Below, piece by piece: positions 9,848 through 30,858 of a stretch of DNA of 33,691 nt (positions within the stretch are counted from its first letter, which is position 1; every line of letters starts with the position of its first letter). The stretch spans positions 1 to 33,691 of the forward strand of contig CAJCCR010000420.1 in NCBI GenBank assembly GCA_903960945.1. The letters are read 5' to 3'. The notes beneath the pieces were generated by a model. It worked only from the letters and a program-made list of their open reading frames with translations. It searched no databases and was not told the origin of the DNA. The stretch comes from an uncultured Planctomycetaceae bacterium. GTDB taxonomy: Bacteria > Planctomycetota > Planctomycetia > Gemmatales > Gemmataceae. The position numbers and the translations under genes were made by a program.

Positions 9848-11548
9848 CTAAGCTTTACGGAACCAAGGCATTATTCGGCCATTCAAAAGCCATCCAATCC
9901 AAGTCGAACGAACCAGCAAATGATAACTGACAAGAAGCAGGGTGATCGTCGCAATATTGATCAGTAGGAATTTTAATAAAGAATTAATAGGCAATTCTCT
10001 AACAAGGAATTGCAACACTAACACTAAAGGCAGATGTACAATATAAATCCAATAAGAAGAATCCGATAAATATCGAATGAACATGTTTTCTTTCTTGATG
10101 AGTGCATGAAACATACCCATCATTCCAAATACCATGTTCCATATTAAAAGTGTTTGCATCAAAAGGTTCAAAGGTAAGTTGTCCTTGAATACAATTTCTG
10201 CAGGAAAAATCATGAACAAAGCTAATGGCAGCATGATGTACCAAAAGCGTGTGAGTTTACAGGCGTAATCATTTAAGTCAAAGTAGATCAAGCCGAAGCT
10301 GAAAAAGATCATGTAATAAAACAACATGTGTGGGGGTGGGAGTATCCCGGTATAAGTATCAGGGCCAAGTATTTCACCCATAAGGCAAAGTGGTAACAAA
10401 GGTGCTGGGATTAAAATATAAAGCATTGTCTTTTTAAGGATGCGCATGGCGTTGGTGTTTAAATTGCGAAATAAAAGGGACCCCAGATTGAAAAAAAGCA
10501 GAAATAATGGAAGCATCCAACAGAGAAACCAAAGAAACCAGAGGTGATGAAAAATACTAGTTTTAAATAAATGAACTGGTTTGTTACCGAAATTTATCTG
10601 AAAAGAAGTTGAAGTAACCCAAGATTGATAGCGTTTATAAAATCCCATTTGTTCTTTTGGTTTGTCTATTTCGACTGTATTGGATTGATTTTTTGAAGCG
10701 GGTGTTAAAAACTGGTTTAACAATAATCTGCTGCGAACACTAATTCTTCCTGAAGTTAAATCAGTTTCAGTGGGTGGTTGAATGCCAAGAATATTCAAAA
10801 TTGAGGTTGTGGTATTGGGATCTGCAAAAGTACCTTCCAGAGCGGTAAAGCCTGCTTTGCTGACTTTGCTGGCATTGGCACCATTGAATAATAGAAGTTT
10901 TACAATTTCATCTCTGCCGAAAAAAGCTGCGCCATGCAGTGCGGTGGTATCATCCTTGTTAGTTGAATTTACATCTGCCCCTAGCTTGATTAATGCGGAA
11001 ACTGTTTCGAGATCTCCTATCATTGCAGCCCATGAAAGAGGAGTTACCCCTAATTTTTTGTCTGGTTTTTCAACTTCACCGGGGTTGATGAGGTATAGAT
11101 TGATGGTTTTTCTGTCGCCTTTGCGGATTGCCCCTGCGAGCGAATTTTCATCCAAGTGCACACTTATCGAACCTGCTTTGACTGTTTCATTTGAAACATA
11201 ACTTAATAGTGGAATAATGGTGAAACACCCAATCAAGCAAGGTAGAAGAATGCGGAGTGTCCTTTGTAAAATCAATGATTTGATATTTCTTTTCCGGTAA
11301 ATCAGCATGGTAAAATAACCACTCAGTAGAAAAAACAAGGGCATTCGAAAGCTATGTACGAGTACTATGAAAAAAATAAAAATGGGAGGTTGTGTAATAT
11401 CCTGAACAGGCCAGGGAAGTGAAACAAAAGTTAAGGATGCATGCAATCCAATACCAAGAAACATGGCAAATGCACGCAAGGCATCCAAGTCATGTCTGCG
11501 ATTTTGAATTTGAATTTCTGGTGTTTCAAGTGTGATATTTTGGCTCAA
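9848..11548 (-). CDS. Membrane acyltransferase (acyltransferase-3 family) with inserted ankyrin repeats
   Basis: 566 residues, read from a TTG at 11548 with AGGA 7 bp upstream; no ATG precedes the conserved region. The N-terminal RRHDLDALRAFAMFLGIGLHA (conserved Arg and His36) and FRMPLFFLLSGYF (68-80) are the signature of acyltransferase-3 membrane O-acyltransferases, of the OpgC/MdoC-like type. FHHLWFLWFLCWM (333-345) resumes the family pattern, and several membrane helices follow to the end. Between them, residues about 134-259 form roughly three to four ankyrin repeats (GVTPLSWAAMIGDLETVSAL; TTALHGAAFFGRDEIVKLLL; GFTALEG). If the N-terminus is cytoplasmic, three preceding helices would put the ankyrin block outside the inner membrane. 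The gene starts 21 bp after the alginate-lyase-like gene, suggesting an operon that acylates and cleaves one polysaccharide. Confidence 0.85.
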   Translation of the reverse strand: MSQNITLETPEIQIQNRRHDLDALRAFAMFLGIGLHASLTFVSLPWPVQDITQPPIFIFFIVLVHSFRMPLFFLLSGYFTMLIYRKRNIKSLILQRTLRILLPCLIGCFTIIPLLSYVSNETVKAGSISVHLDENSLAGAIRKGDRKTINLYLINPGEVEKPDKKLGVTPLSWAAMIGDLETVSALIKLGADVNSTNKDDTTALHGAAFFGRDEIVKLLLFNGANASKVSKAGFTALEGTFADPNTTTSILNILGIQPPTETDLTSGRISVRSRLLLNQFLTPASKNQSNTVEIDKPKEQMGFYKRYQSWVTSTSFQINFGNKPVHLFKTSIFHHLWFLWFLCWMLPLFLLFFNLGSLLFRNLNTNAMRILKKTMLYILIPAPLLPLCLMGEILGPDTYTGILPPPHMLFYYMIFFSFGLIYFDLNDYACKLTRFWYIMLPLALFMIFPAEIVFKDNLPLNLLMQTLLIWNMVFGMMGMFHALIKKENMFIRYLSDSSYWIYIVHLPLVLVLQFLVRELPINSLLKFLLINIATITLLLVSYHLLVRSTWIGWLLNGRIMPWFRKA

Positions 11549-11569: not shown

Positions 11570-12661
11570 TTACTTATCGCGGGCAGCGTTAATTACAAAT
11601 TGCCACGATGGATAATTCGACGCTGTACGGGCATTAGCTTGGCAATAGACTTCGGAAAGATTTTTATCAAAGGCTGCAGCAAGTTCTAAAGTGTGCCCGC
11701 CTTTTTTGGGATCAAAAAGATGACCAGCTTTATAGTTTTCATCCCCAGATTCAGCGCGCTTGCGGTCGAAAGCTACAGATGATTTGACAAACTCGGCATG
11801 TTTTTTTTCGCCCGAACAAAAAGGCAGAAGAAACTTGACCGATTTTTCCAATGATGCACCACTTTTTGATTTGTAGGTATAAAGATTGGTCCCATTGTTA
11901 TTGGCCGCTATCGCAAGTTCCAGCAAGGGTTCCACATCGTAGCAGTGGTAATGCAATGCATCGCGTTCGTGAAAATCAATACTTGATCCATCAGGCCTGA
12001 GATTTACCTCGACCTGTCTTTTGAAACTTTCGATTGCATAATCGATGTATTTCTTTTCTGAAAGGGTGTAACCAATCAACCCAACGATTTTAAGGCGGTG
12101 GCTCTGCCAATTATTTTTAGATATACCATCCCCTTTTCTTGCATGCATCAAGCCGATGGCAATTTGAGTGTCCGCTACTTTGCGCAACCAGGTTTGGGCT
12201 ATTTTTTTTTCTGCATTTGAAAACGTCGCTTGTGTGAGGTCAAAAGCGAAGAAAAGATCATCTAGGCTTGTTTCATCAATTGGATTACCCGTTGGGATAT
12301 TTTGTTGCGACCAAGCCAGTATGAATTCGCGTGCCTTATCTGCGTATTGGGTATCGCCTGTTGCAGCGAAAATGTAAGCGAAGAAATACATTTTACGCAT
12401 ATCTCCTAGGCTTTCGCGAGTTTTGATTGCAAGAGGATCGGTCTTAAGTTTGCCTTCGCCCTGGATGATCCGTATAGGATTTGGCTTATCATTAATTGCT
12501 TTGTCTGCAGCGCGTTTTAAGGTTTCAAAACGGGCCTTGGCATCTTTGTCAGTTTTAATTAATTCCATCAACTTGGTGCGTTGCTGGGCGTTAAGACTGA
12601 TGGGGTTTTCTGCCGCCGCTAGGGCTATAGCAAGTGCACATAGTAGGACTATTGTTTTCAT
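11570..12661 (-). CDS. Exported alginate-lyase-like polysaccharide lyase
   Basis: 363 residues with a signal peptide (MKTIVLLCALAIALAAA). The protein is largely helical, as expected for the alpha/alpha-barrel of the alginate lyase (PL5/AlgL-like) superfamily. NNWQSHR at 183-189 fits the conserved Asn-Asn-x-x-x-His catalytic segment, and DGSSIDFHERDALHYHCY (224-241) fits the second conserved block with Arg233, His237, His239 and Tyr241. These enzymes cleave uronate polymers by beta-elimination in the periplasm or outside the cell. The substrate is inferred to be an acidic polysaccharide, not proven alginate. It is the first gene of a unit with the ankyrin-containing acyltransferase 21 bp downstream. 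Confidence 0.82.
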   Translation of the reverse strand: MKTIVLLCALAIALAAAENPISLNAQQRTKLMELIKTDKDAKARFETLKRAADKAINDKPNPIRIIQGEGKLKTDPLAIKTRESLGDMRKMYFFAYIFAATGDTQYADKAREFILAWSQQNIPTGNPIDETSLDDLFFAFDLTQATFSNAEKKIAQTWLRKVADTQIAIGLMHARKGDGISKNNWQSHRLKIVGLIGYTLSEKKYIDYAIESFKRQVEVNLRPDGSSIDFHERDALHYHCYDVEPLLELAIAANNNGTNLYTYKSKSGASLEKSVKFLLPFCSGEKKHAEFVKSSVAFDRKRAESGDENYKAGHLFDPKKGGHTLELAAAFDKNLSEVYCQANARTASNYPSWQFVINAARDK

Positions 12662-13429: not shown

Positions 13430-14020
13430 ATGTTAAGTCGTAAAACCTATTTTATTAGAGAGCATGTAGGCGTGTTCAAGCTTTCTGATACTTATGATAT
13501 TCTTGACCCTGAAACCCATGAACAATTAGGAATAGCCAAGGAAAAGTCGGGCACGCTCGTTCATGTATTGCGCTTCTTAGTGGGAAAAAGAATCCTGCCA
13601 ACGAAGGTTTTTGTTTATGAAGGGTCTGATTTTGATGATCCATCAAGGTTATTGTTCTCTATTCAAAAGGGATACACATTCCTTAGATCAAAGGTTGATA
13701 TATGTGATGCCAATGGGGTAGTGCTGGGCTGGCTTAAAAGCAAATTATTTAGCATTGGTGGAGCGTTTTATGTTTACGATTCTTCAGGAAATGAAGTTGC
13801 ATTGGTGCAGGGAAATTGGGTTGGATGGACTTTTAAATTCCTTGATAAAGAACAAAACGAAATAGGAACAATTACAAAGAAGTGGGCCGGTGTAGGAAAA
13901 GAAATGTTCACCTCTGCAGATAATTACATGATCGCTTTAAATGATGAGCCTTCCCCCGCTAAAGCAATTTTAATGCTAGCAGCAGGCCTTGCAGTGGATA
14001 TCATTTATAAAGAAAAGTAA
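13430..14020 (+). CDS. Phospholipid-scramblase/LURP-one-like protein
   Basis: 196 residues with AAAGGT before the ATG. The pattern of short beta strands (FKLSDTYDILDPETHEQLG; CDANGVVLGWLKSKLFSIGG; FYVYDSSGNEVALVQGNWVG) and the segment EIGTITKKWAGVGKEMFTSA followed by a hydrophobic C-terminal helix are typical of the Tubby-like C-terminal fold shared by LURP-one and scramblase families. Bacterial members have no settled function; membrane or lipid association is likely from the final helix (AILMLAAGLAVDIIY). No signal peptide is seen. The HELGH gene starts 60 bp downstream on the same strand and may be co-transcribed. Confidence 0.75.
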   Translation: MLSRKTYFIREHVGVFKLSDTYDILDPETHEQLGIAKEKSGTLVHVLRFLVGKRILPTKVFVYEGSDFDDPSRLLFSIQKGYTFLRSKVDICDANGVVLGWLKSKLFSIGGAFYVYDSSGNEVALVQGNWVGWTFKFLDKEQNEIGTITKKWAGVGKEMFTSADNYMIALNDEPSPAKAILMLAAGLAVDIIYKEK

Positions 14021-21726: not shown

Positions 21727-24700
21727 CTAGATTTTGAATAGTTTGTTGACGTCGTAAGCTAAATTGTTATTTGGAGTATCGTCTGTAACTCCCGATGTAG
21801 GCGCAATTTTAGCAATATTTATTATGTCTCCCATCGCTTTAGGGGATATCAAACCTTTTATTGTAATGGAAATGCCTTTTCCCGCCCCTAGGCTTAATCC
21901 ATTCCATAACCCTGTATTACTGTTATAAAACCCAGAAGAAGGCATTCCAAAGGTTGGGTTTAAAAACCATTCAGAGAAAATATTGTTTAGAATGAGACTT
22001 TTTATCGTGCTGGGGCCTTTATTGGTTATAGATACCGTATAGGTGTTATATGTCCCCGGTGCCACAGATTTTGTAGCATCTGCAAGCATTACAGAAAGGC
22101 TTGCGATTGGGGTAAGTGAATCCGTGTCAACAGATGTATTATTTGCTGTGTTTAAATCTGTCATACCACTTGGTGTTTTTACAGTTACGGTGTTGGTGAT
22201 GGAACCAGTTGCAGTAGGTGAGATGGTTCCAGTAAGAGTTATGGTTACGCTATTGCCACTTGTGAGGTTTAGCCCACTCCACAACCCTGTGCTGACATTG
22301 TAACTCCCTGAGGATGGGGTGCCAAAAGTTGCCCCAAGCAAGCTTGCTGGAATCACATCTGTAAGGGTAAATCTTACAACGGTGCTGGGCCCGTTGTTGG
22401 TGACGGTGATGGTATAGGTATTGCTGTTTCCTGGAACCACCGAGGTTTGACCATCAGTTTGGGTAACAACCAAATCAGCCTGTGGTGTCAGTAAATTAAT
22501 ATCACTTGCATTGTTATTTGATAACTTTGTATCTGTTACTCCATTGGGAGCAGCCACCGAAACGGTATTGGTTATTGAACCGGTTGCAGCAGGGGCGATT
22601 GTTCCGCCAAGGGTAATTCTCACGCTGTTGCCTGCACCAAGACTTAAACCACTCCATACCCCTGTAATATTATTATAAGTTCCCGACGATGGTGTTCCAA
22701 AGGTTGCATTTAGCAACTGTGCGGGAATGACATCTGTCATGGTGAAGCTACTAACCGTGCTGGGGCCGTTGTTGGTGACGGTGATGGTATAGGTTGTGCT
22801 GGTTCCAGGGACCACCGAGGTCTTGCCATCGGTTTGAGTGACTACCAAATCAACTTGCGGGGTAAGGGTGTCCACATCCGTGGAAAAGTTGTTGTCGGTA
22901 TTAGAATCGACATAACCATTGGCGGGGGAAACCGAAACAGTGTTGGTGATTGTGCCTGTTGCAGTAGGTGATACCGTACCACGCAGATTCATACTTACAC
23001 TCTTACCAGAAGCCAGATTCAGGTTAGTCCAAAGCCCAGTAACGTTGTTGTATGTTCCCGAAGATGGTGTTCCAAAGGTTGCATTTAGCAACTGTGCGGG
23101 AACGACATCAATCAATGTGAAACTACCTATGTTTGTTGATCCATTGTTGGTAACGGTGATGGTGTAGGTGTTGATGGTTCCTGGTATTGCAGAGGTCTTG
23201 CCATCGGTTTGGGTGACCGATAAATCCACTATTGAACCAAGTACATCAATATCAGTAGCACTGTTGTTTGCTGAATTGGTTTCAGTTACTCCGCTTAGCG
23301 GCGAAACCGAAACGATATTGGTGATTGTACCAGTTGCGTTAGGGTCAATGGTGCCAGTAAGGGTAATAGTTACGCTATTGCTTGAAGCGAAGGAGAGACC
23401 ACTCCAAACCCCTGAGGCGCTATTGTAAGATCCTAATGATGGAGTTCCAAAGGTGGCGCCTAATAACCCCGCAGGTATTGCATCAGTTAATGTAAAGCTG
23501 CTGATGGTGCTGGGCCCATTGTTGGTAACGGTTATGGTGTAGGTGGTAGAAGTTCCTGGAGCTACTGAGGTTTTGTTATCGGTTTGCGTTACTACCAAAT
23601 CAACTTGTGGAGTAAGAGTATCGAAATCTGTAGTACTGTTATTGTTTGAATTAATTTCGGCAACTCCGCTTAATGGCGAAACCGAAACGATATTGGTGAT
23701 AGAGCCAGTGACGCTAGGGTCAACAGTGCCAGTGAGAGTTATAGAAACGCTATTGCCAGAAGCGAGAGTTAAGCCATTCCAGAGGCCGGATACGCTGTTG
23801 TAAGTTCCAGAGTTGGGCGTGAAGACAGGGTTAAGCAAGCCAGTAGGAACAATATCATTCAATGTAAAGCTGCTGATGGTGCTGGGCCCGTTGTTAGTAA
23901 CGGTGATGGTGTAGGTATTGGAAGTTCCTGGAACTGCAGAAGTTTTGTTATCGGTTTGTGTTACTACCAAATCAACCTGCGGGGTAAGTTCGTTAGTATC
24001 AGTTGCGCTGTTGTTGGCAGAATTAGTTTCTGATACTCCGCTTAATGGCGAAACCGAAACGGCATTGGTAATAGATCCAGTGGCAGTAGGGGCAATAGTG
24101 CCAGTGAGGGTAATAATTACGCTATTTCCAGAAGCTAGGTTTAAGCCATTCCAAATACCCGAAACACTATTATAAGTTCCAGAGCTGGGCGAAAATACAG
24201 GATTAAGCAAACCAGCAGGAACGACATCAGCCAATGTTAAACTGCTGATGGTGCTGGGCCCGTTGTTAGTTACGGTGATGGTGTAGGCGTTGAAAGTTCC
24301 TGGCACCACTGAGGTTTTGTTATCGGTTTGCGTTACCGACAAATCGACTTCCGGAGTAAGGTCGTTAGTATCAGTTGCGCTGTTGTTGGCAGAATTAGTT
24401 TCTGATACTCCGCTTAATGGCGAAACCGAAACGGCATTGGTGATGGTACCAGTTGCGTTAGGAGAGATGGTGCCAGTAAGGGTAATGGTAACGCTATTGC
24501 CTGAACTTAAATTTAGGCCATTCCATACACCCGAACTGCCATCGTAGTTTCCAGAGGATGGTGCGCCAAAGGTTGCATTGAGTAAGCCAGCGGGTATGAC
24601 ATCGTTTAGTAAGAAGCCGTTAATGGTGCTCGGCCCGTTGTTAGTTACGGTGATGGTGTAGGTGTTAAAAGTTCCGGGCACCACCGAGGTCTTGCCATTC

Positions 24701-27700
24701 GTTTGTGTAACTCCCAAATCAACTTCGGGAGTTAGCGTATCAATATCGGTAGCACTGTTGTTAGCGGAATTGGTGTCAGTAACTCCACTAGGAGGGGAAA
24801 CTGAAACGATGTTGGTAACGGAACCAATTGCGGTAGGGTCAATCGTGCCCGTGAGAGTTATGGTCACGCTGTCGCCACTAACCAAAGTTAAATTATTCCA
24901 GATCTTGGTAATGGTATCGTAATTCCCAGAAGATGGATCCCCAAAGCTGGCATTAAGCAAGCCTGCAGGAATAAGATCATTGAGTAAGAAACTATTAATG
25001 GTGCTGGGTCCATTGTTAGTGACGGTGATGGTGTAGGTGGTGTTGGTTCCAGGAACTATCGAAGTTTTGTTATCGGTTTGCGAAACAGATAAATCGATCT
25101 CCGATTCCGATGTATTTACATCGGTAGCACTGTCGTTAGCGGAATTGGTATCTACAACTCCACTAGGGGGCGAAACCGAGACAACATTGGTAACGGAACC
25201 CGTATAGGCAGGGTCTATAGTACCAGAGAGAGTAATGGTCACACTATCGCCTGAAGCCAAGCTTAAGCCGTTCCAAACGCCCGAAGTTTCATCATAGGCG
25301 CCGAATGATGGAGTGCCAAAGGTTGCACCTAATAAACCAGCAGGAATGACATCAGTCAATGTGAAGTTGGTGATGGTGCTGGGCCCGTTGTTAGTTACGG
25401 TGATGGTGTAGGTGGTGTTGGTTCCCGCAATAGCGGAGGTTGTGCCATCAGTTTGGGAAACAGATAAATCAACCTGCGGAGTGAGGGTATCTTCATCCAT
25501 AGCACTGTTATTGGAAGATTCGATATCAGAATCTGAAGAAATATTTACCACGTTAATCATAGAACCAGTCAACGATGGCGAAATATTAAAGGTAATAAGA
25601 TAGGCGATGCTCATTCCTGAAGCCAAGCTTGTTATAGTGTCTGCTAATTCGCCCGTTCCAGAACTTCCATTTGTTCCTTCCCATAATGCTGAAATAACGC
25701 CAGTTGGAAGCAAATTACTTACTGTTACATTGGTTGCTGTGCTGGGTCCGGCATTATTGACGGTGATGGTATAGGTGTTGCTGGTGCCAGGTATTACGGA
25801 AATCTTGCCATCAGATTGCGTGACGGATACGTCCACCTGTGGGGTGAGTATGTCTTCGTCAACCGAGGTATTGTCCATCGGATCAGTTTCAAAATCTGTT
25901 GAAACATTGATCAAATTAACTACCGAGCCTGTCAACGACTCCGAGACAATGCAGGTTAGCGAATAGGTCACGCTTTCTTCGGAAGCCAGACTTACAATGG
26001 TGTCTGATAAGTTGCCATTTCCAGAGCTTCCGTTTGATCCATTCCAAACTGCTGATAACAATCCATCTGGCAATAGATCACTTACTTTAACATTGGTTGC
26101 TGTGCTAGGGCCGGAATTTGTGACGGTGATGGTGTAAGTGGTACTGGTTCCGGGAACTAATGAATTTACATCGTTGCTTCCTTTTACATTTATATTTACC
26201 TGGGGACTTAATGTGTCTTCATCAATGGTGGTGTTATTCAAGTTGTCTGTATCGTTATCTGTTTCAACACTTACGATATTGACTATCGAACCTGTTAAAT
26301 CTTCTGGAATATCAAGTAAAAGAAGATAATCAACGCTCTCGCCTGAATCCAATGTTGCGATGGTATCTTTTAATTCTCCAGATCCAGAACTATCATTTGT
26401 ACCTACCCACATTGGTAACTTAATACTATCTGGCAGTAAGTCACTTACTTTGATATTCGTAGCAGTGCTGGGGCCGAAGTTTGTCACAGTGATCATGTAG
26501 AACGAGGTTGTACCAGGAACTACTGCATTTCCATTGTTACCTGCCGTGACACCAATATCGACTTGAGGCGTCAAGATATTTACATCGGTGGCAGTGTTAT
26601 TCAAAGTGTTTGTATCATTGTCTGAAGTAACATTGACCTCGTTAATCAGGGAACCTGTTGCTGTACCCGCAATGTTAAATGTAATTTGATAAGTTACACT
26701 CTCGCCCGAAGCCAATGTTGGTATGGTGTCAATAAGTTCTCCTGTTCCTGAATTTCCATTTGATCCAGTCCAAATTGCTGATGTTACCCCATCTGGCAAC
26801 AAATCAGTTACCACCACACTTGTTGCTCTGCTTGAACCATTGTTGGTCACAGTGATGCTGTAGGTGTTTGTTGTGCCCGGGATTACGGAAGTCTTCCCAT
26901 CAGATTGGGTGACTGATAAATCTACTTCTGTTGTCAAGGTATCGATGTCGGTTGAACTATCGTTTGCAGAATTGGTATCAGTAACGCCATTAGGAGCAGA
27001 AATGAAAACAGTGTTGTTTATAGAACCAGTTACTGTGGGGTCAATAGTGCCTGTGAGGGTAATGGTAATGCTATCGCCTGAAGCGAGAGTTAAGCCATTC
27101 CAGAGGCCGGATACGCTGTTGTAAGTTCCAGAGCTAGGCGTAAAGACAGGATTAAGCAAACCAGCAGGTACTGTATCAGTTAATGTAAAGCTGCTGATGG
27201 TGCTTGGCCCGTTGTTGGTTACGGTGATGGTGTAGGTATTGGAAGTTCCGGGAACCACAGAAGTCTTGTTATCAGTTTGCGTTACTGATAAATCAACTTC
27301 GGGGGTAAGGGTATTAATATCATCTGCACTGTTGTTGGCAGAATTAGTTTCGGCAACTCCGCTTGGTGGCGAAACTGAAACGATGTTGGTGAAAGAACCC
27401 GTTGCTGTTGGGTCAATGGTGCCAGTGAGAGTTATGGTAACGCTATCGCCTGAAGCTAGGGTTATACCACTCCATATTCCTGTAATGCTGTTGTAAGAAC
27501 CCGAGGACGGTGTGCCAAAGGTTGCGTTAAGTAAGCTAGCGGGAATGATATCGTTCAATGTGAAATTGTTAATGGTGCTAGGACCAGAATTAATAACCGT
27601 GATGGTGTAGGTGGTGTTGGTTCCAGGAACGACAACAGAGTTGTTGTCACTTTGAGAGACAAACAAATCAACTTCGGGAGTAAGGGTATCGACATCTGTA

Positions 27701-30700
27701 GTACTGTTGTTATTGGAATTAATTTCGGTAACTCCGCTAGGTGCAGAAACCGAAACGATATTGGTAATAGAACCCGTTGCTGTTGGGTCGATGTTGCCCG
27801 TGAGAGTTATAGTTACGTTATCGCCTGAAGCGAGAGTAAAACCGTTCCAAAGGCCTGAAGCACTGTTGTACGATCCTGAACTGGGCGTACCAAAGGTGGC
27901 ATTAAGCAGGGCCGCGGGTACGGAATCAGTCATGGTGAAGCTGTTAATAGTGCTGGGGCCATTGTTGGTGACGGTGATGCTGTAGGCGTTGGAAGTGCCG
28001 GGAACTGCAGAGGTTTTATTATCGGTTTGGGTTATTGACAAATCGACTTGGGGAGTAAGGGTGTCGGTATCGGTGGAACTGTTGTTGGCGGAATTAGTTT
28101 CGGACACTCCACTTAAAGGTGAAACCGAAACAGTGTTGGAGATGGACCCAGTAGCGGTTGGGTCAATGGTGCCTGAGAGGGTAATGGTCACACTATTTCC
28201 AGAAGCGAGATTTAAGCCACCCCAAAGGCCGGAGGAACTGTTATACGATCCTGAACTGGGTGTGCCAAAGGTGGCATTAAGCAGGGCAGCAGGTATGGAA
28301 TCAGTCAATGTGAAGCTGTTAATCGTACTGGGACCATTGTTGGTGACGGTGATGGTGTAGGTGTTGGAAGTTCCAGGAGTAACCGAGGTTTTATTATCAG
28401 TTTGCGTGACAGACAAATCAACTTGTGGAGTAAGGGTATCGATATCGGTAGCAGTGTTATTAGATGAATTAGTATCGGATACACCGCTTGGTGGAGAAAC
28501 CGAAACGATGTTGGAAATGGACCCAGTAGCAGTTGGGTCGATGGTGCCCTCAAGGGTAATGGTAACGCTATTGCCCGAAGCCAGAGTTAAGCCATTCCAG
28601 ACGCCGGAGGAACTGTTGTAAGTTCCAGAACTGGGTGTGAATACAGGATTAAGCAAACCAGCAGGTATGGCATTAGTTAACGTTAAGCTGCTGATGGTGC
28701 TGGGCCCGTTGTTAGTAACGGTGATGGTGTACGTGTTGGAAGTTCCAGGAACGATAGAAGTTTTGTTATCGGTTTGAGAGACAGATAAATCGACTTGAGG
28801 AGTAAGGGTATCGGTATCAGTGGCACTGTTGTTAGATGAGTTGCTATCGGATAAACCGCTTGGTGGAGAAACTGAAACAGTGTTGGAGATAGACCCAGTA
28901 GCAGTTGGGTCAATGGTGCCCGTGAGGGTAATGGTAACACTATTGCCGGAGGCGAGAGTTAGGCCATTCCATAATCCTGTAGTACTGTTATAAGTTCCTG
29001 AGCTTGGGGTGAAAACTGGGTTGAGAAGTGCAGTAGGTAAGGAATCAGTCAGTGTGAAGTTGCTAATAGTGCTAGGGCCATTATTGGTGACGGTGATGGT
29101 GTAGGTGTTGGAAGTTCCTGGCACTACAGAAGTTTTGTTATCGGTTTGAGAGACAGACAAATCTACTAGGGAAGTAAGGGTATCTGTATCAGTAGCAGTG
29201 TTATTAGATGAATTAGTATCGGATACGCCGCTTGGTGGAGAAACCGAAACGGTGTTGGTAATGGAACCCGTTGCGGTAGGAGAAATCCTACCAGTGAGGG
29301 TCATGGTAACACTATTCCCGGAGGCTAGAGTTAGGCCACTCCATAATCCTGTAGTACTGTTGTAAGCCCCTAGGCTTGGAGTGAATACCGGATTGAGAAG
29401 TCCAGCAGGTACGGAATCAGTCAATTTGAAACTGCTAATGGTGCTAGGGCCATTGTTGGTGACAGTGATGGTGTAGGTGTTGGAAGTTCCAGGAGTAACC
29501 GAGGTTTTATTATCAGTTTGCGTGACAGACAAATCAACTTGTGGAGTAAGGGTGTTGGTATCGGTTGCACTGTTGTTGCCAGAATTTGTTTCGGACACAC
29601 CACTAGGAGCAGAAATCGAAATGGCGTTGGTGATGGAACCAGTGGCGGTCGGAGAAACCATGCCCGTGAGGGTTAAGGTTACACTATTTCCAGAAGCCAG
29701 AATTAAGCCATCCCAAAGGCCTGAAGCGTTGTTGTATAATCCTGAACTTGGGGTGAATACTGGATTGAGAAGTCCAGCAGGTACCGCATCATTTAATGTG
29801 AAGTTGTTGATGGTGCTAGGGCCATTGTTGGTGACGGTGATGGTGTAGGTATTGGAATTTCCCGGAACGATTGAAGTCTTACCATCAGATTGAGAGACAG
29901 ATAAATCAACTTGGGGAGTCAGAGTATCGACATCAGATGCCGTATTATTTGAAAGGTTCGGATCATCGACATTACTTGGGGCAGTAATCGTTACGGAATT
30001 GGTTAATGATCCTGTGGCTGAAGCAGAAACAGTACCGGTGAGGTTTATGGTCAGACTTTTGCCGGTCTTTAAGGTTATTCCATTCCAAAGGCCGGAGTTC
30101 CTATCGTAAGATCCAGAGGATGGAGAACCAAAGGTTGCGCCTAATAATCCTGCAGGAATTGAATCGATTAGCGTCAAACTTCTTACTGTGGTAGGCCCGT
30201 TGTTGGTGACGGTGATGGTGTAGGTGGTATTTGCCCCTGGAACCAGTTGGGAGGTTAGGTTTCTAACATTTACGGCGAGATCGGCTAATGGTATTGCATC
30301 GGTGAACGAGAAAGTTGCTATCTGGTCATCTGTTGTTCCTAAAATATCATCCAAGCCACTTCCTTTAGCGGTAAGAAGAAAAGTCTCGTTCAGGGAATCA
30401 TCAGGATTAACATACCAAGAGGTTTGGACAAGTCCGTTTGCAATACCATCAAAATCGCCAATTCCGCCATCGGTTACAATCCAGGCTTCATGACCATCCC
30501 CAGTGTTGTTTCCGAGGATATCATCAAGAGTTCCTAACTTTCCATCAGCCCCAGGGCCAATAATATGAACCACTTGAAATGTAATGTCAGAACCAGGCAA
30601 AAAATGATTAGCACTAATGATTGCAGTGCTTCCCGGTGGATAATCAGCAAGATCTGTGGACACATTAGGAATCAACAAGGATGATTGAGAGAGTAGGGAT

Positions 30701-30858
30701 GTAGAATCAAGGATCAAAGTAGCAGGCGTAATGCGATCTTCGAGTTGTAAAAGAAATGGAAGGCGAAGATGTTTTTGCTTCTTTTTGGATTCGGGGCCTG
30801 AAAAAGAATTGAAGCCTAGAAAATTGTTTTTGAGAATGTCTTTAATGTTTTTGAACAT
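21727..30858 (-). CDS. Giant exported surface protein with 23 DUF11 repeats
   Basis: 3043 residues with AAGGGA upstream of the ATG. Residues 39-46 are LEDRITPA, the planctomycete N-terminal motif of large exported proteins. Residues about 68-188 form a domain seen in other giant bacterial surface proteins (DYPPGSTAIISANHFLPGS, GHEAWIVTDGG, SWYVNPDDSL). From residue about 191 to the end there are 23 DUF11 repeats of about 124 residues, each with VDLSVTQTDNKTS, PGTSNTYTITVTNNGPST, a (V/I)PAGLL turn, LASGNSVTITLTGT and NSANNSATDTDTLTP. Repeats 10-13 are a distinct subtype (LLPDG, GSNGSSGTGEL) without the usual YNS..GLWNGL strand. The last repeat is degenerate and ends in LFKI. No enzyme domain, anchor or sorting signal is evident. 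The protein probably forms a long extracellular stalk or adhesin. Confidence 0.92.
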   Translation of the reverse strand: MFKNIKDILKNNFLGFNSFSGPESKKKQKHLRLPFLLQLEDRITPATLILDSTSLLSQSSLLIPNVSTDLADYPPGSTAIISANHFLPGSDITFQVVHIIGPGADGKLGTLDDILGNNTGDGHEAWIVTDGGIGDFDGIANGLVQTSWYVNPDDSLNETFLLTAKGSGLDDILGTTDDQIATFSFTDAIPLADLAVNVRNLTSQLVPGANTTYTITVTNNGPTTVRSLTLIDSIPAGLLGATFGSPSSGSYDRNSGLWNGITLKTGKSLTINLTGTVSASATGSLTNSVTITAPSNVDDPNLSNNTASDVDTLTPQVDLSVSQSDGKTSIVPGNSNTYTITVTNNGPSTINNFTLNDAVPAGLLNPVFTPSSGLYNNASGLWDGLILASGNSVTLTLTGMVSPTATGSITNAISISAPSGVSETNSGNNSATDTNTLTPQVDLSVTQTDNKTSVTPGTSNTYTITVTNNGPSTISSFKLTDSVPAGLLNPVFTPSLGAYNSTTGLWSGLTLASGNSVTMTLTGRISPTATGSITNTVSVSPPSGVSDTNSSNNTATDTDTLTSLVDLSVSQTDNKTSVVPGTSNTYTITVTNNGPSTISNFTLTDSLPTALLNPVFTPSSGTYNSTTGLWNGLTLASGNSVTITLTGTIDPTATGSISNTVSVSPPSGLSDSNSSNNSATDTDTLTPQVDLSVSQTDNKTSIVPGTSNTYTITVTNNGPSTISSLTLTNAIPAGLLNPVFTPSSGTYNSSSGVWNGLTLASGNSVTITLEGTIDPTATGSISNIVSVSPPSGVSDTNSSNNTATDIDTLTPQVDLSVTQTDNKTSVTPGTSNTYTITVTNNGPSTINSFTLTDSIPAALLNATFGTPSSGSYNSSSGLWGGLNLASGNSVTITLSGTIDPTATGSISNTVSVSPLSGVSETNSANNSSTDTDTLTPQVDLSITQTDNKTSAVPGTSNAYSITVTNNGPSTINSFTMTDSVPAALLNATFGTPSSGSYNSASGLWNGFTLASGDNVTITLTGNIDPTATGSITNIVSVSAPSGVTEINSNNNSTTDVDTLTPEVDLFVSQSDNNSVVVPGTNTTYTITVINSGPSTINNFTLNDIIPASLLNATFGTPSSGSYNSITGIWSGITLASGDSVTITLTGTIDPTATGSFTNIVSVSPPSGVAETNSANNSADDINTLTPEVDLSVTQTDNKTSVVPGTSNTYTITVTNNGPSTISSFTLTDTVPAGLLNPVFTPSSGTYNSVSGLWNGLTLASGDSITITLTGTIDPTVTGSINNTVFISAPNGVTDTNSANDSSTDIDTLTTEVDLSVTQSDGKTSVIPGTTNTYSITVTNNGSSRATSVVVTDLLPDGVTSAIWTGSNGNSGTGELIDTIPTLASGESVTYQITFNIAGTATGSLINEVNVTSDNDTNTLNNTATDVNILTPQVDIGVTAGNNGNAVVPGTTSFYMITVTNFGPSTATNIKVSDLLPDSIKLPMWVGTNDSSGSGELKDTIATLDSGESVDYLLLLDIPEDLTGSIVNIVSVETDNDTDNLNNTTIDEDTLSPQVNINVKGSNDVNSLVPGTSTTYTITVTNSGPSTATNVKVSDLLPDGLLSAVWNGSNGSSGNGNLSDTIVSLASEESVTYSLTCIVSESLTGSVVNLINVSTDFETDPMDNTSVDEDILTPQVDVSVTQSDGKISVIPGTSNTYTITVNNAGPSTATNVTVSNLLPTGVISALWEGTNGSSGTGELADTITSLASGMSIAYLITFNISPSLTGSMINVVNISSDSDIESSNNSAMDEDTLTPQVDLSVSQTDGTTSAIAGTNTTYTITVTNNGPSTITNFTLTDVIPAGLLGATFGTPSFGAYDETSGVWNGLSLASGDSVTITLSGTIDPAYTGSVTNVVSVSPPSGVVDTNSANDSATDVNTSESEIDLSVSQTDNKTSIVPGTNTTYTITVTNNGPSTINSFLLNDLIPAGLLNASFGDPSSGNYDTITKIWNNLTLVSGDSVTITLTGTIDPTAIGSVTNIVSVSPPSGVTDTNSANNSATDIDTLTPEVDLGVTQTNGKTSVVPGTFNTYTITVTNNGPSTINGFLLNDVIPAGLLNATFGAPSSGNYDGSSGVWNGLNLSSGNSVTITLTGTISPNATGTITNAVSVSPLSGVSETNSANNSATDTNDLTPEVDLSVTQTDNKTSVVPGTFNAYTITVTNNGPSTISSLTLADVVPAGLLNPVFSPSSGTYNSVSGIWNGLNLASGNSVIITLTGTIAPTATGSITNAVSVSPLSGVSETNSANNSATDTNELTPQVDLVVTQTDNKTSAVPGTSNTYTITVTNNGPSTISSFTLNDIVPTGLLNPVFTPNSGTYNSVSGLWNGLTLASGNSVSITLTGTVDPSVTGSITNIVSVSPLSGVAEINSNNNSTTDFDTLTPQVDLVVTQTDNKTSVAPGTSTTYTITVTNNGPSTISSFTLTDAIPAGLLGATFGTPSLGSYNSASGVWSGLSFASSNSVTITLTGTIDPNATGTITNIVSVSPLSGVTETNSANNSATDIDVLGSIVDLSVTQTDGKTSAIPGTINTYTITVTNNGSTNIGSFTLIDVVPAQLLNATFGTPSSGTYNNVTGLWTNLNLASGKSVSMNLRGTVSPTATGTITNTVSVSPANGYVDSNTDNNFSTDVDTLTPQVDLVVTQTDGKTSVVPGTSTTYTITVTNNGPSTVSSFTMTDVIPAQLLNATFGTPSSGTYNNITGVWSGLSLGAGNSVRITLGGTIAPAATGSITNTVSVAAPNGVTDTKLSNNNASDINLLTPQADLVVTQTDGQTSVVPGNSNTYTITVTNNGPSTVVRFTLTDVIPASLLGATFGTPSSGSYNVSTGLWSGLNLTSGNSVTITLTGTISPTATGSITNTVTVKTPSGMTDLNTANNTSVDTDSLTPIASLSVMLADATKSVAPGTYNTYTVSITNKGPSTIKSLILNNIFSEWFLNPTFGMPSSGFYNSNTGLWNGLSLGAGKGISITIKGLISPKAMGDIINIAKIAPTSGVTDDTPNNNLAYDVNKLFKI
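28349..28437. repeat. 89-bp tract identical to 29465-29553
   Basis: The tract lies at the junction of DUF11 units 2 and 3 and is base-for-base identical to the segment 1116 bp away (three units), while neighbouring sequence differs. This fits recent gene conversion or unequal exchange within the array. Confidence 0.8.
29465..29553. repeat. Partner of the 89-bp identical tract at 28349-28437
   Basis: Identical to 28349-28437 throughout; identity ends at a G/A difference on one side and a TA/GT difference on the other. Both copies encode the unusual SVTPG variant of the DUF11 unit start. Confidence 0.8.

Follow-up and report, generated by a model that had tools for sequence, protein, structure and literature searches.

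The window, by which we mean the whole stretch of 33,691 nucleotides analyzed here, carries on its reverse strand a gene for an acyltransferase-3 (AT3) membrane protein in which ankyrin repeats are embedded (ANK-AT3; Table 1). The Pfam family Acyl_transf_3 (PF01757) was matched in two stretches, the better at residues 19-130 (E 1.9e-29; 103.2 bits against a cut-off of 31), and between them lie the repeats, detected as Ank_2 (PF12796) at residues 139-226 (E 1.4e-14; 54.9 bits against a cut-off of 27.3). Both motifs that mark AT3 proteins are present, R25/H36 in TM1 and RxxR at TM3. There is no SGNH domain at the C-terminus behind an 11th helix; no such Pfam domain was matched and the protein ends after TM10. 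Elsewhere in the window are genes encoding a bacterial scramblase/LURP-one-like protein at 13430-14020 (+) (PF03803, 2.4e-13) and, at 21727-30858 (-), an open reading frame (ORF) of 3043 amino acids.

Table 1. Coordinates within the window of the ANK-AT3 gene, the parts of its protein, and the adjoining gene.
Feature	Position	Strand	Details and basis
ANK-AT3 gene	9848..11548	(-)	566 aa; TTG start, AGGA six bases upstream
AT3 first half, residues 1-118, TM1-TM3	11195..11548	(-)	Pfam stretch 19-130; family hydropathy
R-x10-H motif (R25, H36), D22 just ahead	11441..11476	(-)	Invariant 17/17 and 99/99
RxxR motif (R96, R99), cytoplasmic side of TM3	11252..11263	(-)	Invariant 17/17 and 99/99
Ankyrin domain, residues 131-262, TM3-TM4 loop	10763..11158	(-)	Pfam Ank_2 139-226; AF2; Foldseek; alignment
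Conserved hydrophobic patch, concave face (W173, M176, F209, F210)	10919..11032	(-)	Alignment columns
Linker from ankyrin domain to TM4, residues 263-327; conserved G267-R268, L275	10568..10762	(-)	Alignment
AT3 second half, residues 328-566, TM4-TM10	9848..10567	(-)	Second Pfam stretch; hydropathy
Alginate-lyase-like gene	11570..12661	(-)	PF05426, E 2.6e-33; 21 bases upstream of ANK-AT3

The preliminary description of this DNA had placed about 125 residues of ankyrin repeats inside the acyltransferase, and their presence there is borne out by the Pfam matches, by structure prediction and by Foldseek. The length it gave is correct for the repeats and too short for the insert as a whole: the ankyrin part proper, at approximately residues 131-262, is followed by a 65-residue linker, and the entire stretch between TM3 and TM4 (residues 118-336) comprises 218 residues as compared to 39-59 in nine AT3 proteins without insert from the same taxonomic family. 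An AF2 model of residues 118-335 contained ankyrin-type helix pairs at approximately 137-221 (pLDDT of the block 59-85 over ~128-220) with a weaker pair at 232-253, and a Foldseek search with this model returned DARPins as the top matches (E 6e-5, probability 1.00). Thus, both a profile match (PF00023/PF12796) and the helix pairs of ankyrin repeats were found. The full-length AF2 model, made with five close sequences, was poor (mean pLDDT 40), and the predicted structure consequently supports the ankyrin part only.

An assembly fusion of two genes, which the preliminary description had raised, would have some plausibility in a draft genome of 458 contigs with 5.2% contamination. However, the same open frame was found in four other loci of the same genus (L032, L033, L034, and L035; 72-96% identity, with L034 cut by a contig end), which also have the gene order around ANK-AT3 in common, and in a paralog of the same build, 36% identical, within the same genome. 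The search for the same insertion in further planctomycetes that had been proposed likewise found it widely. A profile (A2) built from 17 ANK-AT3 members matched, at the level of the order, 21 of 102 genomes (E <= 1e-45) and, at E <= 1e-50, 90 of 397 from the class and 18 of 392 from the phylum, these being counts that take in fragments and a few insert-less proteins, with the phylum draw repeating genomes of the class draw. From outside the taxonomic family, 80 matched places were fetched for inspection of their ORFs; the N-terminal half, the ankyrin part and the C-terminal half were in one ORF in 76 of them, including five from assemblies listed as a single contig (G144, G157, G331, G208, and G487). 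Two others (L165 and L198) had both AT3 halves without ankyrin, and in the remaining two (L163 and L197) no ORF with both halves was found. The ANK-AT3 gene is therefore no assembly fusion, the probability of which is practically nil; the occurrence of the same build in many planctomycete genomes indicates a real and old design.

Ankyrin repeats were present in 100 of 124 AT3 candidates overall, the 24 ankyrin-less ones having been chosen as nearest matches or neighbors and not as a random sample. In a quick tree for which only the AT3 parts were used (123 rows, the partial L034 being dropped), the ankyrin label requires 3 changes compared to 22.3 in shuffles, and the starred branches force one change only, such that a single origin of the ankyrin-AT3 build is possible. 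Two insert-less AT3 proteins within the ANK clade keep most of the clade-specific residues, which fits their having arisen by loss of the insert and would mean that the insert may be dispensable to the AT3 part. One insert-less member of this clade (L165, 541-2619 (+)) has a 258-residue N-terminal extension without a Pfam match. Insert-less AT3 genes also adjoin or lie near ANK-AT3 genes in two genera (L047, 5954-7234 (-); L051, 2982-4214 (-)). Across 99 proteins, the insert ranges from 155 to 440 residues, and some have two or more ankyrin blocks. Among other variants, three tandem ANK-AT3 genes are found beside a 357-aa ankyrin-only protein (L039, 8413-14771 (-)), and one ANK-AT3 ORF has a Rhomboid domain (residues 58-188; 44.5 bits) ahead of AT3 at its N-terminus (L124, 5183-7516 (+)). 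At L017 (1289-2040 (-)), two overlapping ORFs match the ends of ANK-AT3 only (query residues 10-176 and 493-557), and this is perhaps a decaying copy. Beyond the Planctomycetota, coverage consisted of plasmid records, viral records and one contig scan with patterns made from the query only. Of the 30 stretches of viral contigs that fitted a pattern, none was a relative; two plasmid records matched the N-terminal half of AT3 alone; and the contig scan returned four close planctomycete relatives together with one ankyrin-only match titled Arcobacter.

With six same-genus pairs, dN/dS was 0.14-0.32 in the ankyrin part, the corresponding ranges being 0.11-0.26 in the AT3 parts and 0.20-0.42 in the linker; the insert is thus under purifying selection. 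Its conserved positions belong mostly to the general ankyrin framework with four exceptions: W173, L/M176, F209, and L/F210. Tryptophan occupies position 173 in 69% of the ANK-AT3 proteins and phenylalanine position 209 in 72 of 99, while position 210 is hydrophobic in 90%. As a control, 61 repeats were taken from 17 ankyrin proteins of the same taxonomic family picked for their similarity to the insert (20 loci had been fetched, three of them without usable repeats); the equivalent of position 209 was phenylalanine in 3 of the 61, and that of 210 was hydrophobic in 8%. The Fisher p-value for the patch, 1e-18, overstates independence as the control repeats come from related proteins. The pattern persists in 43 representatives less than 50% identical (F209 in 77%), and following the repeats, R268 is found in 95% of these and L275 is kept too. 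Conservation of the patch was scored from alignment columns and not from the patch-motif regular expression, which matches 68 of the 99 proteins, the other 31 often being one letter off. Positions 209 and 210 correspond to the randomized DARPin positions 13 and 14 on the target-facing side. Together, these observations suggest that the concave patch grips something constant. The distance from the motif to TM4 has an interquartile range of 105-132 residues and, among the five motif-bearing proteins with inserts longer than 260 residues, the extra length falls mostly before the motif in four and after it in one, a distribution that is suggestive only. Residues that separate AT3 proteins with and without ankyrin are mostly located in membrane helices, P396 being the only one in another outward loop, and hence the data give no pointer to a docking face.

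The preliminary description had also assumed an N-in topology with the insert on the outer face, and this assumption has support from the sequence. Hydropathy peaks of the family fit ten helices, the insert following TM3, and in all 99 proteins the loops assigned to the inside by the N-in model exceed the others in both number and density of lysine and arginine (mean K+R of 4.4 for loop 2-3 and 0.02 for loop 5-6). With OafB, the TMH3-4 loop is described as long and periplasmic, and R-X10-H and RXXR as essential, RXXR being on the cytoplasmic face of TMH3 (PMC9833829, in part); in ANK-AT3, RxxR likewise immediately precedes TM3, and R-x10-H lies in TM1. Cysteine accounts for only 75 of 21090 insert residues (0.36%), which fits an extracytoplasmic location. 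Given the charge distribution, the OafB topology and the scarcity of cysteine, the insert is most likely extracytoplasmic. The opposite placement, with the ankyrin domain in the cytoplasm through an inverted topology or a re-entrant loop, would be in keeping with most known ankyrin domains, which are cytoplasmic. It also has a precedent in one study of OatA, which gave this protein nine helices, with part of the chain re-entering the membrane and a long loop in the cytoplasm ahead of the last helix (PMC9833829, in part). Against this stand the three lines of evidence above and the motif positions shared with OafB, and we consider it very unlikely.

The genetic context of ANK-AT3 provides no constant companion. 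The preliminary description had suggested that the insert may hold the co-encoded lyase and, indeed, the two genes are on one strand, separated by 21 bases here and likewise in L032 and L033, and probably co-transcribed. However, the lyase was detected in only 3 of 95 genomes of the family (E <= 1e-20), and at L035 (4682-4957 (+)) it is internally deleted beside an intact ANK-AT3, with ~70 N-terminal and ~14 C-terminal residues remaining in different frames. The lyase was accordingly rejected as the partner; holding it as a general role of the ankyrin domain is largely refuted, and the proposal as such is highly improbable. Single-linkage clustering of the neighbors of 93 ANK-AT3 genes, six of the 99 having been lost from the crude gene calls, revealed no constant neighbor. 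The largest clusters comprised an ABC transporter (12 loci), a protein with an opening that we take to be DUF1501-like (12 loci), and an ankyrin-bearing group with a PQQ-ankyrin hub (11 loci, with eight occurrences immediately upstream, at -1, and in the same orientation). The hub itself (L183, 7103-8965 (-)) combines a PQQ/BamB-like propeller with ankyrin repeats. The only two Ank_2 matches in the query genome are the AT3 inserts, implying a domain that is dedicated to this enzyme.

Read from the sequence, the AT3 core of ANK-AT3 is complete, and its TM3-TM4 loop contains an ankyrin module that is under selection and bears a conserved patch. In the arrangement to which we give the greatest weight, with a probability of approximately 0.45, R25, H36 and RxxR would hold cytoplasmic acyl-CoA, from which the acyl group would be taken and passed through the membrane to an extracytoplasmic acceptor; the kept residues lead us to infer that this known chemistry of the family is performed. 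In the outward loop, the ankyrin domain would be a fixed module lying above the exit of the acyl group. Its hydrophobic concave face would most likely grip the linker or the extracytoplasmic membrane surface of the same protein, and the module would thereby shape the site at which acceptors dock. It would occupy the place that in other members of the family is filled by an extra docking or transferase domain, SGNH in the case of OafB. The extracytoplasmic position of the module, its placement over the exit and the grip of its patch on something constant are each inferred.

Packing of the module on its own chain is favored as the neighboring genes vary and the patch does not; the purifying selection and the positive-inside distribution were also counted in its favor. 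A possible, though doubtful, alternative is that the patch docks an unlinked partner found throughout the phylum. Its location at the target-facing positions of DARPins would suit such a role. Furthermore, ankyrin domains mostly bind proteins, as does the periplasmic Bd3460 (PMC4686830, in part), and the question of a partner for AT3-only proteins has been raised in review (PMC9558356, in part). Nevertheless, no neighbor cluster exceeded 12 loci and no partner family was identified. That the insert instead serves mainly to space or stabilize the outward face structurally, and takes no part in recognition, would accommodate the variable number of repeats and length of insert, the proteins with two or more ankyrin blocks and the two clade members lacking it, but it is unlikely given the conserved surface patch, the purifying selection and the conservation of GR and L beyond the repeats. 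Packing on the protein's own linker or membrane surface is preferred over both the unlinked partner and the passive spacer. Quite unlikely is a more far-reaching proposal, that these form a phylum-wide class of ankyrin-guided acyltransferases with an outward solenoid that would replace SGNH and dock a protein acceptor or transferase. Planctomycetes would then acylate extracytoplasmic proteins, or polymers linked to proteins, instead of free glycans.

Among known systems, the best NCBIfam match of ANK-AT3 is MdoC/OpgC (NF003014; E. coli opgC, b1047), an osmoregulated periplasmic glucan succinyltransferase. The score of 117.8 bits over two stretches is below the cut-off of 338, as is that of the paralog (156.8 bits), and ANK-AT3 is hence called an MdoC/OpgC-like AT3 protein and not MdoC. 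Identity to E. coli OpgC is 33% over 131 residues, R-x10-H and RxxR included, but the E. coli protein has 385 aa compared to 566, with 35 residues between its halves and no ankyrin match. The AT3-SGNH proteins OafB and OatA resemble ANK-AT3 in combining an AT3 core with an additional outer-face domain, and OafB shares the long periplasmic TMH3-4 loop; in these, however, the extra domain is an enzyme located C-terminally after the 11th helix, whereas in ANK-AT3 it is an ankyrin solenoid within the TM3-TM4 loop. The fusions named in a review of AT3 proteins are with SGNH and alanine racemase domains (PMC9558356, in part); the word 'ankyrin' does not occur in its main text as searched or in PMC12423673, and no report of an AT3 protein with an ankyrin insert was recognized in the literature as surveyed at the level of listings. 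The preliminary description had called periplasmic ankyrin domains unusual; they are uncommon and yet known, as with Bd3460 of Bdellovibrio, the repeats of which bind protein outside of the cytoplasm (PMC4686830, in part). Bd3460 is a soluble endopeptidase inhibitor exported by a signal peptide, whereas the repeats of ANK-AT3 are found within a membrane enzyme, and the latter add a large set to the extracytoplasmic ankyrin domains of bacteria. The choice and reach of acceptors by AT3 proteins lacking SGNH have been stated to be open (PMC9558356, in part), and a widespread natural AT3 protein with a dedicated protein-binding module in an outward loop, apparently near the exit, provides a handle on this question.
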